DNA of 36,697 bases from Terriglobales bacterium. GTDB lineage: Bacteria; Acidobacteriota; Terriglobia; Terriglobales; Acidobacteriaceae. The position numbers and the translations under genes are program-made. Positions 2,347-23,261 of this stretch are shown in pieces. The DNA lies in contig DATIGQ010000207.1 of the NCBI GenBank assembly GCA_035454605.1, positions 1-36,697 of the forward strand, given 5' to 3'. Under the pieces are notes generated by a model. It had not been told where the DNA came from, made no database searches, and worked only from the letters and a program-made list of their open reading frames with translations. The first letter of the stretch is position 1; every line of letters begins with the position of its first letter.

Positions 2347-3171
2347 ATGGCGATTAAAACTTACAGACCGGTCACCGCGACGCGACGCGTGCAAACCACG
2401 CTCGCCAACGACGACTTGACCACCGATCGTCCGTACAAGCCTTTGACGGCCCCGCTGAAGAAGACCGGCGGACGCCGCAACGCGGGCGACGTCACCATCT
2501 GGCACCGTGGCGGCGGACACAAGCGCAAGCTCCGCCTCATCGACTTCAAACGCGACAAGGCCGGTGTTCCCGCTCGTGTCGCCTCCGTCGAGTACGATCC
2601 CAATCGTTCCGCTCGCATCGCCCTGCTCGAGTATGCCGACGGCGAGAAGCGCTACATCCTCCAGCCCATGGGCCTGGAGGTCGGCCAGAAAGTCGTGAGC
2701 GGTCCTGAGGCGGACATCCTGGTGGGCAACGCCCTGCCGCTGCGCAACATTCCGCCCGGCACCACCATCCACAACATTGAACTCCGCCCTGGCAAGGGTG
2801 GGCAGATGGTGCGCTCCGCCGGCGGTGCCGCGCAGTTGGTCGCCAAGGAAGGCGACTACGCCCTGATCAAGCTGCCATCCGGCGAAACCCGCAAGGTGCT
2901 GGTGGACTGCATGGCCACCATCGGCCAGGTCGGCAACCTGGACCACGAGAACATTGCCATCGGCAAGGCCGGTCGCCGCCGCTGGATGGGCATCCGGCCC
3001 ACCAACCGCGGCGTGGTCATGAACCCGGTGGACCATCCGCACGGCGGCGGCGAGGGCAAAACCAGTGGCGGTCGCCACCCGGTCACCCCCTGGGGCCAGC
3101 CCACGCGCGGCTACAAGACGCGGAACAACAAGCGCACGGACCGCTTCATCGTCCAGCGCCGAACCAAGTAA
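2347..3171 (+). CDS. rplB: 50S ribosomal protein L2
   Basis: L2 is a universally conserved 23S rRNA binding protein needed for subunit association and peptidyl transferase assembly. At 274 residues it has the standard length. Diagnostic segments are [20 protein letters not shown] near the N-terminus and, at the C-terminus, [20 protein letters not shown], which contains the conserved histidines of the catalytic-centre region. ATG at 2347 follows the AAGCGAAACTTGATTT spacer, which has no strong Shine-Dalgarno. It is followed by a 29-bp spacer built of heptads and then rpsS. Confidence 0.97.
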
Positions 3172-3173
3172 CG

Positions 3174-3200
3174 GAGAACTGGGAACTGAGAACTTAACTT
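3174..3200 (+). repeat. Heptad repeat array, rplB-rpsS spacer
   Basis: Three consecutive 7-bp words of the form GRGAACT (GAGAACT at 3174-3180, GGGAACT, GAGAACT) plus a partial TAACTT fill nearly the whole spacer and touch the rpsS ATG. No other ribosome-binding sequence lies between them and the start, so the GGGA/GAGA part of the words probably serves as a weak Shine-Dalgarno. Confidence 0.75.
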
Positions 3201-3578
3201 ATGGCGCGTTCTACTAAAAAAGGACCTTACGTCGAGCAGCGGCTCCTGGCCCGTGTCGAGGCCATGAACCAGCGCAACGAGAAGAAAGTGCTGCGCACCT
3301 GGTCGCGACGCTCCACCGTGGTGCCGGAGATGGTGGGCCACACCCTGGCCGTCCACAACGGCAAGAAGTTCATCCCGGTGTACGTCACCGAGAACATGGT
3401 GGGGCACAAGCTGGGTGAGTTCAGCCACACCCGCATCTTCAAGGCGCACTCCATGAGGGCCGCCACGGAAACCGTGGCCAAGCCGGCTGGCGTGCCCGGC
3501 GGTCCGGGCGCCATCGTGCCCTCGGCTCCGGCCGGCGGTGCGGCTCCTCCGGCGGCCCCGGCGGCGCCCAAGGCGTAG
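3201..3578 (+). CDS. rpsS: 30S ribosomal protein S19, with Ala/Pro-rich tail
   Basis: S19 is a 30S head protein contacting S13 and bridging to the 50S. Residues 1-90 are typical: [15 protein letters not shown] at the N-terminus and [29 protein letters not shown] in the core, then [11 protein letters not shown]. The 125-residue product is about 30 residues longer than most S19 proteins (about 92). The extra C-terminus is low complexity, rich in Ala, Pro and Gly (for example [16 protein letters not shown]). rplV begins 10 bp after the stop. Confidence 0.96.
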
Positions 3579-3588
3579 GAGAAGAACC

Positions 3589-4011
3589 ATGGAATTTCGT
3601 GCTGAGGCAAAATTCGTTCGCGTCTCGCCCCAGAAGGCGCGCCTGGTCCTCGACCTGATCCAGGGACGCCAGGTGGAGGACGCGCTCAACACTCTGGCCT
3701 TCACCCGCAAGGGTTGCGTGCCGGACGTCAGCAAGGTGTTGCACTCGGCCATCCAGAACGCCAGCTACCTCAGCCAGGAAAAGGGACTGGACGTCGACCT
3801 GGACCGGCTGTACGTCAAGCGCGCCGTGGCCAACGAAGGCCCGCGCATGAAGCGCATCCGGCCGGCCCCCATGGGTCGTGCTTTCCGCTACCAGCGGCGC
3901 ATGGCGCATATCGAGATCGCGCTCGCCGAGCGTGGCCGGGGAAACGCCCCCGCCAGGGAAGCCACCGCTCCTAAAGCGGTCGCCGGGAAGAAATCGAAAG
4001 GGAAGAGGTAA
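3589..4011 (+). CDS. rplV: 50S ribosomal protein L22
   Basis: L22 binds all 23S rRNA domains and forms part of the exit-tunnel constriction with L4. The product of 140 residues starts [20 protein letters not shown], the expected N-terminus, and carries the tunnel-hairpin region [22 protein letters not shown] at 3589 follows AGGAGAAGAACC, a good Shine-Dalgarno. An upstream in-frame start inside rpsS would only add an Arg-rich shadow peptide and is rejected. The C-terminus has a Lys/Ala-rich extension of roughly 20-25 residues. rpsC starts 4 bp later. Confidence 0.96.
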
Positions 4012-4015
4012 GCAG

Positions 4016-20731: not shown

Positions 20732-20763
20732 TTGACTCCGTAGTATGGTACGGGGCGCAGAAT
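20732..20763 (+). promoter_or_regulatory. MerR-type promoter and operator
   Basis: TTGACT (20732-20737) is followed by the dyad CCGTA-GTATGG-TACGG (20738-20753) and then CAGAAT (20758-20763), giving a 20-bp spacer. An operator dyad lodged in an overlong -35/-10 spacer is the hallmark of MerR-family promoters, and CTCCGTA...TACGG matches the known mer operator half-sites (TTCCGTAC...GTACGGA). MerR would both repress and, with Hg(II), activate here. Confidence 0.75.
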
Positions 20764-20782
20764 GAACAGGAAGAGAAAAGGC

Positions 20783-21190
20783 ATGATGATCGGGCAACTG
20801 GCGCGTGCGGCGGGCGTGAACGTGGAGACGGTGCGTTTCTATGAGCGGAAGGGCCTGATGCCAAGACCACCGAGGCGGCCTTCCGGATATCGCGAGTACC
20901 CGGGCGACGCGGCCCGGCGCATCCGGTTCATCCAGCGGGGTAAGGAGCTGGGGTTCTCGCTGCGGGAGATTGCCGAGCTGCTGCGGCTGCGGGTGGACCC
21001 AGGGCGAAGCTGTGCCGAGGTGAAGGCGCAGGCGGAGGCGAAGCTGGCCGACATCGATACGAAGCTGCGCGAATTGCGCCACATGAAAGGGGCTCTGGAG
21101 AAACTGGCGGCGGAATGCAGGGGCCGGGGCCCGACCAGCCAGTGTCCTCTGCTGGATGCACTGGAGGCGGTGGAGAGGAAGAGGAAGTGA
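20783..21190 (+). CDS. merR: MerR-family Hg(II)-responsive regulator
   Basis: A 135-residue MerR-family activator. The helix-turn-helix MIGQLARAAGVNVETVRFYE is followed by the wing RPPRRPSGYREYP and a dimerisation helix. Three cysteines match the mercury-sensing set of Tn501 MerR (C82, C117, C126): one in GRSCAEVKAQAE at the start of the long helix, and a pair with exactly eight residues between in ECRGRGPTSQCPLLDAL. ATG at 20783 is preferred to 20762 because the latter overlaps the -10 box; AGGAAGAG is then the ribosome-binding site. Its TGA overlaps the next ATG by one base. Sensing of Hg is inferred from these residues. Confidence 0.88.
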   Translation: MMIGQLARAAGVNVETVRFYERKGLMPRPPRRPSGYREYPGDAARRIRFIQRGKELGFSLREIAELLRLRVDPGRSCAEVKAQAEAKLADIDTKLRELRHMKGALEKLAAECRGRGPTSQCPLLDALEAVERKRK

Positions 21191-21903
21191 TGGCGCGAGT
21201 CGAGCTGATCTACGACCGGGATTGTCCCAACATCGGTGAAGCGCGTGCCGAGCTGCTGCGGGCTTTCGAGCGGGCGGGAGCTTCTCCGCGGTGGGAGGAG
21301 TGGGAACGTTCGGCGGCAGAAAGCCCGAGCTACGTGCGGCAGTTCGGTTCTCCGACGGTGCTGGTAGACGGCAAAGACGTAGCGCCCATGGAAGAGGTTG
21401 CGGGCGAGGGCTGCTGCCGCCTGTATGGGGAAGATTCAGGAACACTGCGTGCTCCTTCGGCGGAGCAGATAGCGGTGAAGCTGCGGGCGGTGACGGAACC
21501 GGTGCGGAAGAACATCGGCTGGGGAAGCGGCGCCGTCGTGTTGCCGGGAGCCGGGGTAGCGCTGCTACCCAAGCTGGCTTGTCCGGCGTGCTGGCCGGCG
21601 TATGCAGCGGTGGTGAGTTCACTTGGACTCGGCTTCCTCCTGCAGAACAGCTATTTGCTGGTCATCACGACGGGTTTTCTGCTTCTGGCACTTGGGGCTC
21701 TGTGGTGGCGGGCCAAGGAAAGACGAGGCTACGGACCTCTGGTGCTAGGTGTGATGGCATCCGCCGTAATCCTGTTAGGGAAGTTCAAGCTGGAATCGCA
21801 GCCCATTTGGTGGGCGGGAGCCGCGTTGCTGGTTGCCGCCTGCGCATGGAATGGATGGCCGCGCCGGGGGTGTCCGGCATGTGCCGTTCCTGAGCAAATC
21901 TGA
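21190..21903 (+). CDS. Thioredoxin-like / MerC-like membrane fusion protein
   Basis: The 237-residue product has two parts. Residues 1-100 look like a thioredoxin-fold domain: VELIYDRDCPN with C12, the cis-Pro-type strand GSPTVLVDG at 53-61, and a CC pair at 75-76. Residues 112-222 hold about four membrane segments, with KLACPACWPAYA (C131, C134) at the first and a terminal GCPACAVP (C228, C231). This resembles the MerC-like mercury uptake family. The likely job is capture of Hg(II) by the soluble domain and passage through the membrane cysteines. Start overlaps the merR stop (TGATG). Function is inferred from cysteines and context. Confidence 0.75.
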   Translation: MARVELIYDRDCPNIGEARAELLRAFERAGASPRWEEWERSAAESPSYVRQFGSPTVLVDGKDVAPMEEVAGEGCCRLYGEDSGTLRAPSAEQIAVKLRAVTEPVRKNIGWGSGAVVLPGAGVALLPKLACPACWPAYAAVVSSLGLGFLLQNSYLLVITTGFLLLALGALWWRAKERRGYGPLVLGVMASAVILLGKFKLESQPIWWAGAALLVAACAWNGWPRRGCPACAVPEQI

Positions 21904-21916
21904 AGTTGGAGGAATC

Positions 21917-22186
21917 ATGAGTGCAAAGCGAAAGATAGAAATCTTCAGTGCCGGTTGTGCGGCGTGTGAAGAAACCATCCACATGGTGAATCGCGTGGCC
22001 TGCCCGTCGTGCGAGGTCAGCGTGCTGGATATGCAGGACAAACAGGTGGCAGCACGAGCGCGTTCCTTGGGCGTGCGCTCGGTGCCGGCTGTGGCGATCG
22101 ACGGCAAGCTGGTGGACTGCTGTGCGGGCAGAGGGCCGGAAGCGGCGACGCTCAAGCGTGCAGGTCTGGGACAGCCGGTTGGATGA
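21917..22186 (+). CDS. Small Cys-rich thioredoxin/glutaredoxin-like protein
   Basis: An 89-residue protein with a compact thioredoxin-like fold. IEIFSAGCAACEET carries the CxxC active site (C14, C17); a second pair lies in VACPSCEVSVLDM (C29, C32); SVPAVAIDGKLVDCCAGRG gives the cis-Pro loop and a CC pair (C68, C69). Six cysteines in 89 residues suggest metal or thiol relay rather than ordinary reductase work. ATG at 21917 has GGAGG 5-8 bp upstream. It stands within the mercury-type operon, and may replace MerP as the soluble Hg carrier. That role is inferred. Confidence 0.78.
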   Translation: MSAKRKIEIFSAGCAACEETIHMVNRVACPSCEVSVLDMQDKQVAARARSLGVRSVPAVAIDGKLVDCCAGRGPEAATLKRAGLGQPVG

Positions 22187-22269
22187 TCTCTCAAGGCTCG
22201 CGCCCTGCCGCTGCGGAATCTGGAGCGACGAGCGCGTGTCAGGCGCAACTCGGCGAACGCTCGATAACC

Positions 22270-22647
22270 ATGATGAGTGAGAAGTTATCACCGCCCGTAC
22301 CACAAGAGACGCAATGGAAGGCGCCTCTGGCCTCCATGGGAGCGTTGGTGAGCGCTCTGCTGACGCTGGGATGTTGCGTGCCAGTCGGCTTGCTGGGTGC
22401 TGCCGGCGCCGCCGGAGCAGCAATCTTTCTTGGCAAAGCTCGGCCCTGGCTGTTGGGCCTATCCGGGGTGTTCCTCATCTTCGGTTTCTTGCAGGTCTTT
22501 GGAGGGGCGCGGTGCGGCCTGAAGCCGTCCAAGGCCAACCTCGTGCCGCTGTTTCTGGCTACGGCGATCGTGGCGGTCGTTCTGCTGTTTCCACAAGTCG
22601 TCGCCCAAGTGCTTGCCGATTGGGCAAGTGGAGCGAGCCGTGGGTAA
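22270..22647 (+). CDS. MerT-like mercuric ion transport protein
   Basis: A 125-residue membrane protein with about three hydrophobic segments. The first contains the vicinal pair C35-C36 in LLTLGCCVPVGLLG, as in MerT, and is followed by FLGKARPWLLGLSGVFLIFG and a loop cysteine in GARCGLKP (C82). MerT normally has two cysteines in that loop; only one is seen. ATG at 22270 is chosen because the membrane domain follows closely, but there is no clear Shine-Dalgarno. An alternative ATG at 22183 overlaps the upstream stop (ATGA) and adds 29 residues. The next gene starts inside its 3' end. Confidence 0.75.
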   Translation: MMSEKLSPPVPQETQWKAPLASMGALVSALLTLGCCVPVGLLGAAGAAGAAIFLGKARPWLLGLSGVFLIFGFLQVFGGARCGLKPSKANLVPLFLATAIVAVVLLFPQVVAQVLADWASGASRG

Positions 22648-23242
22648 GTGGCTGGTGGCGGCAGCCGTCCTGCTGTTGGTTGCGGTGCTGGGCTGGCAGC
22701 TCTGGGGACCCTCACAGGCTCCTAGCGGACAGCCTCCTATGCTCGAGTTGAATACGGAAAACGTCGCCTCGCTGAAGCGCGGCTTCAATGAGGCTTCCGA
22801 CCGGGTTCGCATCATTGCTCTGCTTTCTCCCACCTGATCCACGTGCCTGCGGGGGGCCTCCGCAATCCAAAACGTGCTGCAACAGCAGCCTAGCGGCGAT
22901 GTAGCCATCTTCGCAGTCTGGGAGCCGATTCTGCAGACCGACTGGGCGAAGCCCGGTAGCAGCGTGCTCGCACGAATGCCGGATGGGCGAGTGCAGCAGT
23001 TCTGGGATCCGCACCACCTGATTGCCGGGGAGCTGAGTCGGAGCATGAAGCTGGACGCTGCACATCCTCGGCCGGATTGTTGCTGGGAGGAAGGCGTGCT
23101 GTGGGATCTCGTCGCCGTTTATCCCCAGGGAGCGGCGTGGGAGTCCTCAGTGCCGCGCGCGGTGTACATCCAAGGGCCGGTGGTGAACGCAGAAAGATTA
23201 CCGCAAGTCCTCGCAGAGCTATTGGGTAAGCCCGCGGAGTAG
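22640..23242 (+). CDS. Membrane-anchored thioredoxin-fold selenoprotein (UxxC), in-frame TGA
   Basis: Read through the TGA at 22835-22837, this frame gives 200 residues. A single N-terminal membrane anchor (residues 4-21) is followed by a thioredoxin beta-alpha-beta unit: VRIIALLSPT, then Sec66-Ser-Thr-Cys69, helix RGASAIQNVL, and strand VAIFAVWEPI. A UxxC motif replaces the redox CxxC. Frame and protein-like composition continue for 134 codons after the TGA, ending at TAG 23240-23242; a CC pair lies in PDCCWEEG. A SECIS-like hairpin lies at 22848-22864. GTG at 22640 overlaps the MerT-like stop, with GGAG 6 bp upstream. The rival reading is a nonsense-broken gene. A redox or Hg-binding role is inferred. 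Confidence 0.8.
22848..22864 (+). promoter_or_regulatory. Candidate bacterial SECIS element
   Basis: TGCGGGG (22848-22854) pairs with CTCCGCA (22858-22864) as a 7-bp stem containing one G-U pair, capped by the three-base loop GGC. Seventeen nucleotides separate the TGA from the loop and the loop begins with G. Both agree with described bacterial SECIS models (loop about 16-37 nt from UGA, G among the first loop bases). Confidence 0.7.
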
Positions 23243-23261
23243 ATCGGCAGGAAACGCCCAT

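Follow-up and report, generated by a model that had tools for sequence, protein, structure and literature searches.

A stretch of 22640-23242 on contig DATIGQ010000207.1 of a Terriglobales bacterium (assembly GCA_035454605.1, here genome G000; the contig of 36,697 nt is referred to as the window) is, judged from its sequence, almost certainly a selenoprotein gene. Its product belongs to an apparently new selenoprotein family, whose genes would be split by gene callers and which is unnamed in Pfam and NCBIfam. Since several members adjoin mercury-transport genes, the family suggests that soil bacteria use selenium chemistry in handling mercury or a similar metal.

Gene structure and operon

When the TGA at 22835-22837 is taken as a residue, 22640-23242 encodes an uninterrupted protein of 200 aa, in which residue 66 is the only TGA (LLSPT-U-STC) and which has its own conserved C-terminal W/D/P pattern. 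With the standard code the frame is split, and an ORF listing at a minimum of 80 aa shows only 22874-23242 in that frame; the first-pass annotation had expected standard gene calling to break up the gene, and it does. The gene and its surroundings comprise the following features:

20762..21190, + strand: merR-type regulator (Pfam MerR; NCBIfam MerR 137 bits, cut-off 150.85)
21190..21903, + strand: DF family (seleno)protein domain (Cys form) fused to a MerC-like membrane domain (PF03203, NF049942)
21917..22186, + strand: small thioredoxin (Thioredoxin_3; PF13192, 1.2e-09)
22270..22647, + strand: MerT-like membrane protein with a vicinal Cys pair (weak NCBIfam MerT; profile built here)
22630..22633, + strand: GGAG, likely ribosome-binding site by its sequence, with the GTG start 6 bases further on
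22640..23242, + strand: predicted selenoprotein gene; thioredoxin-fold domain with UxxC behind an N-terminal membrane helix (residues 2-22)
22835..22837, + strand: TGA as predicted selenocysteine 66 (TGA in 56 and a Cys codon in 15 of the 71 loci showing this column)
22844..22846, + strand: Cys69, second Cys of UxxC (Cys in 69/71 loci, a second TGA, i.e., UxxU, in two)
22848..22864, + strand: predicted SECIS hairpin, 7 bp, GGC loop (covariation, synonymous-codon null)

The selenoprotein gene starts with GTG and overlaps the end of the MerT-like gene by 8 bases. Because the two genes overlap within an operon headed by a Hg-type MerR, they are probably co-transcribed and translationally coupled. 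Downstream follow rimP, nusA and infB.

The operon was described beforehand as mercury-type, which agrees with the genes preceding the selenoprotein gene: (i) a MerR in which, upon alignment with 5crl and 4ua1, all three Hg(II)-ligand positions of Tn501 MerR are Cys (the three aligned Cys of the Tn501 and Bacillus regulators being the Hg(II) ligands), the models for Hg, Zn and Cu MerR scoring close together on this regulator, (ii) the DF/MerC fusion, matching PF03203 over its cut-off (4.7e-08) and NF049942 below the respective cut-off (5.6e-12; 45.5 of 70 bits), (iii) the small thioredoxin, and (iv) the MerT-like gene. The latter is matched weakly by NCBIfam MerT (3.7e-05), its 24 bits lying below the curated cut-off of 130. 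It has no Pfam match, and PF02411 has none in G000 at 1e-5; the MerT profile built here, seeded in part by this very protein, matches it at 2e-22. No MerA over cut-off is present in the operon or the genome of G000 (best 313 bits against 454), so that Hg(II) reduction cannot be claimed for this organism.

The N-terminal domain of the fusion protein is close to NF049942 in a Cys form, and single-domain DF proteins over the cut-off occur in sister operons (L151, L150, L152).

Homologues and exchange of Sec and Cys

A protein search of 396 genomes of the phylum (Acidobacteriota) yielded 53 places in 48 genomes. G332 was left out, its motif lying outside the covered part, and 52 places in 47 genomes remained, so that roughly an eighth of the sampled phylum genomes have a member (47/396). 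The first motif position is TGA in 41 of these loci and a Cys codon in 11. From 300 genomes of the window's own family, a profile search gave 28 places, three of them already counted and five set aside as weak or short; of the 20 retrieved, G460 was dropped (a contig end cuts the locus just past the motif), leaving 19 usable loci with 15 TGA and 4 Cys. Across all Acidobacteriota loci showing the column (n = 71), 56 have TGA and 15 Cys (11 TGC, 4 TGT). Since the motif pattern demanded U or C, a check was made of what it had missed, which returned G332 and G460 only. Thus, nothing but TGA or Cys occurs in this column wherever it is visible, as an alignment of homologues had been proposed to reveal. 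The TGA had been placed at the first position of a redox motif within one continuous frame; the homologues bear out both points, with TGA or Cys at that position of UxxC in 71/71 loci and the frame conserved across 22640-23242.

A quick tree comprises 70 rows, as it excludes G613, a locus counted among the 71 that contains a TAG downstream. Along this tree, Sec and Cys replace each other in 9 instances, of which at least 7 are forced by starred branches. At the level of sequence, such repeated exchange of TGA and Cys is the classical pattern of a selenoprotein.

The phylum search redone with an alignment found members in 50/396 genomes, losing G332 and gaining three weak partial matches (G233, G119, G368). 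In wider genome contigs, a first degenerate scan with the window protein itself found no relatives, and query A3 retrieved 15 loci, whose titles read Acidobacteria/Acidobacteriota in 14 cases and Aminicenantes in the remaining one. The Aminicenantes locus is filed in the same phylum, and all 15 contigs represent loci already counted, which were not added again. No member was found in IMG/VR with query A3 or among plasmid sequences with query P0001.

SECIS hairpin

A 7-bp hairpin with a GGC loop 17 nt past the TGA, noted on first inspection, is present at 22848-22864: arms 22848-22854 and 22858-22864 enclose the loop (22855-22857), the first arm being separated from the TGA by ten bases and the loop beginning after 17. 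Rfam has no match in the window, and the folding energy of the single hairpin is no better than that of shuffles (z 0.14). As folding energy alone does not exceed shuffles, covariation constitutes the evidence for its function as SECIS. Among 40 distinct Sec loci, 88.9% of the stem cells are paired (shuffles 68.6%), changes on both sides are seen in 47 cells (shuffles 11.7), and the covariation score is 0.619 (shuffles 0.264); none of 500 shuffles reached the observed paired fraction, double-change cells or covariation score. Covariation is best at slide 0, and the score drops to at most 0.26 when the partner is shifted by one column. Double changes occur at 5 of the pairs, a value within the usual range of the shuffles (159/500).

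The stem is also not forced by the peptide, since the 56 Sec loci have on average 6.32 of 7 positions paired and random synonymous codons, drawn from the same genes, give 3.95 (observed value reached in 0/2000). For the window alone, a full 7-bp stem arises under random synonymous codons with a probability of 0.010. All 7 pairs are formed in 38/56 Sec loci and at most 5 in 10/56. In the 15 Cys loci, 3.2 of 7 pairs are formed against a null of 2.72 (reached by 62/2000). The 19 own-family loci, scored as a separate set with the stem fixed beforehand, show 6-7 pairs in 13 of the 15 Sec loci and 3-5 in the 4 Cys loci.

Selenocysteine machinery

A search of the same genome for selA, selB, selD and the selC tRNA had been suggested, and all four are present in G000 (98% complete): tRNA-Sec (69 bits, anticodon TCA), SelA (542 bits), SelB (384 bits) and SelD (374 bits). 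Because another tRNA-Sec candidate of lower score (48 bits) also passed the cut-off and a control exceeded it in 5/14 genomes, ARAGORN was used to confirm the best match. SelD of G000 itself carries an in-frame TGA in GUASKL (L115 1531-1533), the usual Sec site of this protein. SelB (E up to 1e-60) is found in 36/37 genomes with a Sec form, compared to 256/396 in the phylum sample (Fisher p 9e-7). The one exception (G266) is 72% complete, and the match in G242 is weak (1.9e-61). Genomes with a Cys form possess SelB nearly as often (10/11); G329 has the Cys form only and lacks SelB.

The UGA at 22835 would accordingly be a codon for Sec, decoded by tRNA-Sec and SelB under guidance of the hairpin at 22848-22864; machinery and hairpin are evident from the sequence, and the decoding event itself is proposed. 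Two other readings of the TGA were rejected. That it is a true stop, created by pseudogene formation or a sequencing error and followed by decaying sequence, would agree with the frame being split by standard gene calling. This reading is already refuted by the homologues and practically negligible in probability, given the identical codon in the identical column of 56 loci from many genera, the conservation of residues downstream of the TGA and the covarying hairpin. Reassignment or read-through as another residue in this lineage (Trp, Gly) found no support and is equally far-fetched: the alternative residue is Cys in 15/15 cases, the Sec machinery is complete including tRNA-Sec(UCA), and the hairpin is present with TGA and weak with Cys.

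Predicted fold and membrane anchor

The AlphaFold2 model of the window protein (mean pLDDT 81.5; 16 rows) contains a strand at residues 56-62, a helix at 67-82 and a strand at 88-94, with UxxC between the first strand and the helix. This predicted arrangement fits the single beta-alpha-beta unit around the TGA that had been recognised from the letters. In the PDB, the model is matched best (Z 11-13) by thioredoxins of the TlpA/ResA/DsbE type, by GPX and by a chain bearing the title quenching protein, the top 11 rows having Z 12.0-13.2 over 121-134 residues at rmsd 2.7-3.2. The predicted fold thus matches solved TlpA/ResA-type members over most of the domain. A hydrophobic N-terminal stretch was found by a simple test in 44/65 members, the other 21/65 being below the threshold, several narrowly; a lipobox-like motif occurs in 7 of 65. 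Based on model and sequence, the protein is probably an N-terminally anchored, TlpA/ResA/DsbE-type thioredoxin-fold protein with UxxC that would face outward.

With TlpA/ResA/DsbE (PDB 2f9s, 3gl3) it shares the N-terminal anchor, the thioredoxin fold (Z about 12-13) and the position of the motif on the same beta-alpha-beta unit. Unlike these, it has Sec at the first motif position and the C-terminal W/D/P pattern mentioned above, and it matches no thioredoxin model of Pfam or NCBIfam.

Relation to known selenoprotein families

Against Pfam-A and NCBIfam 20.0, the window selenoprotein matches 0 families at E up to 0.1. Among 27 members compared at E up to 0.1, weak matches were obtained to PF00085 for 7 (best 0.0004) and to PF08534 for one (0.032); the best NCBIfam E is 0.0047, and NF040730 and PF13098 are absent from the matches.

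The selenoprotein table of a 2026 inventory (119 families; PMC13188914) lists as UxxC thioredoxin-like selenoproteins Trx (PF00085), SaoT (NF040730), a thiol:disulfide interchange protein (PF13098) and a Redoxin family (PF08534). The window protein resembles them in having UxxC in a thioredoxin-like protein, Cys homologues and a SECIS after the UGA, and differs in that it matches none of their testable Pfam/NCBIfam models. No family in this table is recognisable as the present one, entries with cd, PTHR or no models being compared by name only, and the inventory, as far as that table goes, contains no dedicated selenothioredoxin beside a MerT-like transporter. A description of the family was not found in the literature searched (the parts covered of PMC13188914, PMC9312934, PMC12013277 and PMC8261052). 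On this literature the family appears to be undescribed, the 'Redoxin family protein' HEU0032618.1 of PMC13188914 being known by name alone.

Selenoproteins of metal transport provide a second comparison: MerT-like (PF02411, C/SxxU), MerT/CopZ fusion-like (NF045683), UxxU metal-binding (NF041115) and DF (NF049942) proteins. Common to both is Sec in a protein of metal-transport type, with a DF domain and MerT-like proteins being encoded nearby in the present case. However, none of these four models matches the window selenoprotein, and, by their names and motifs, their Sec resides in the transporter, metal-binding or DF domain, whereas here it is located in a separate thioredoxin. Sec in metal transport is therefore already known (MerT-like, MerT/CopZ fusion-like, SaoL), and it is the family itself that is new.

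Genomic neighbourhoods

A neighbour was termed mer-type if at least one own-strand match was obtained with the profiles built here, which were partly seeded from these loci; G613, having MerR matches on the opposite strand only, was not counted. Own-strand MerR, MerT, MerC or HMA genes are located near 16/52 phylum loci (in one case MerR alone) and 10/19 own-family loci, four of the latter displaying the order MerR, DF, MerT, member. In total, 26/71 loci have mer-type neighbours and 45/71 have none on their own strand in the stretch compared, some of these being on short contigs. In an outside test, 48 genomes were found to contain 19 Pfam MerT (PF02411) matches, 10 of which are no more than 1.5 kb away from a member. 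When 117 ORFs from the vicinity of members, selected crudely by length, were compared with Pfam, MerR was obtained in 7, MerT in 4 and MerC in 3. The link to mercury drawn by the first-pass annotation therefore stands for the operon in the window and does not extend to the family as a whole: with 45/71 loci devoid of mer-type neighbours, mercury cannot be its only role.

Four members are fused to metal domains, i.e., HMA in G219, G042 and G071 (over the Pfam cut-off) and MerT in G086. The MerT part of the latter is at the cut-off (31.7 bits against 32.9 when proteins were scanned, 34.6 when the genome was searched), and the genes follow one another as merR, merT::member (Cys form), an ORF of 130 aa and a merA over its cut-off. 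In G188, belonging to another family, a MerT-like gene directly precedes the member.

The genome of G414, of the same genus as G000, has no member. Ahead of rimP and nusA it retains the initial part of the operon, i.e., the genes for MerR, DF/MerC and thioredoxin (76% identity; L165 6906-8592), but window positions 22175-23254, comprising the MerT-like and selenoprotein genes, have no match, 234 other bases occupying their place; in addition, the distance from the retained operon genes to the flank upstream is some 3.7 kb longer in G414. The MerT-like and selenoprotein genes thus seem to vary jointly between G000 and G414, as would result from one gain or loss.

Four members of one clade (L055, L058, L066, L067) adjoin pilM and are without mer-type neighbours.

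Proposed role and alternatives

As an explanation of the whole, a membrane-anchored, outward-facing seleno-thioredoxin partnering a MerT-like transporter is rather probable. Regarding its parts, it is quite likely that the protein acts as an outward-facing thiol/selenol exchanger, and moderately probable that it serves the MerT-like transporter of this operon. We infer an outward anchor, a first attack by the selenolate and service to the transporter by redox chemistry or metal transfer. The selenolate of Sec66 would attack first and could then either reduce the cysteines of the MerT-like transporter or of a MerP-like carrier, or strip Hg(II) or a similar soft metal off its ligands and pass it on, which would be the place of MerP in the classical mer operon. 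MerP is a small, outward-facing CxxC protein following merT, and selenium is well known to bind mercury very strongly. Similarly, the window gene follows a MerT-like gene, and MerP-like HMA domains are fused to three members; yet the predicted fold is that of thioredoxin rather than HMA, so that the comparison concerns function only. One may speculate further, albeit tentatively and with considerable doubt, that the pair forms a selenol-based uptake module for mercury (or soft metals), in which the selenothioredoxin captures Hg(II) via Sec and hands it to the Cys pair of the MerT-like protein as MerP would, the two genes entering and leaving the MerR-DF operons of Acidobacteriota together as a cassette.

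A general outward-facing redox selenoenzyme (disulfide reductase or peroxidase-like), for which metal is not the substrate and location in a metal operon is due to chance, would account for the 45/71 loci without own-strand mer-type neighbour, for GPX and ResA among the fold matches and for the pilM genes adjoining four members of one clade. It is nevertheless rather unlikely in view of the fusions to MerT and HMA domains, the adjacency to MerT, the repeated order MerR-DF-MerT-member in four own-family loci and the absence of the gene together with the MerT-like gene in G414. That the operon is devoted to sensing and handling a different soft metal or metalloid (Cu, Zn/Cd, As, Au), which the selenoprotein would then serve, would be compatible with the close scores of the MerR subfamilies, a Cys spacing of the regulator varying from 9 to 16 among loci and the lack of a MerA over cut-off in G000, but appears improbable, since the Cys triad in the window matches that of the Hg-responsive MerR of Tn501, MerC and MerT relatives are present in the window, and merA lies beside the member of G086. 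A single family comprising Sec and Cys forms with and without mer neighbours makes the benefit of Sec for metal handling testable by comparison.

Variant members

G546 possesses three Sec-form copies (L144, L146, L147), each directly preceded by a MerT-like gene. The mer-type cluster of L147, which ends in a member, also contains a flavin disulfide reductase (2580-4013), which obtains similar scores from the models for glutathione reductase and for MerA, in either case below cut-off. G250 and G113 (L092, L094) represent a UxxU form with TGA at both motif positions, in which 3/7 stem positions are paired.
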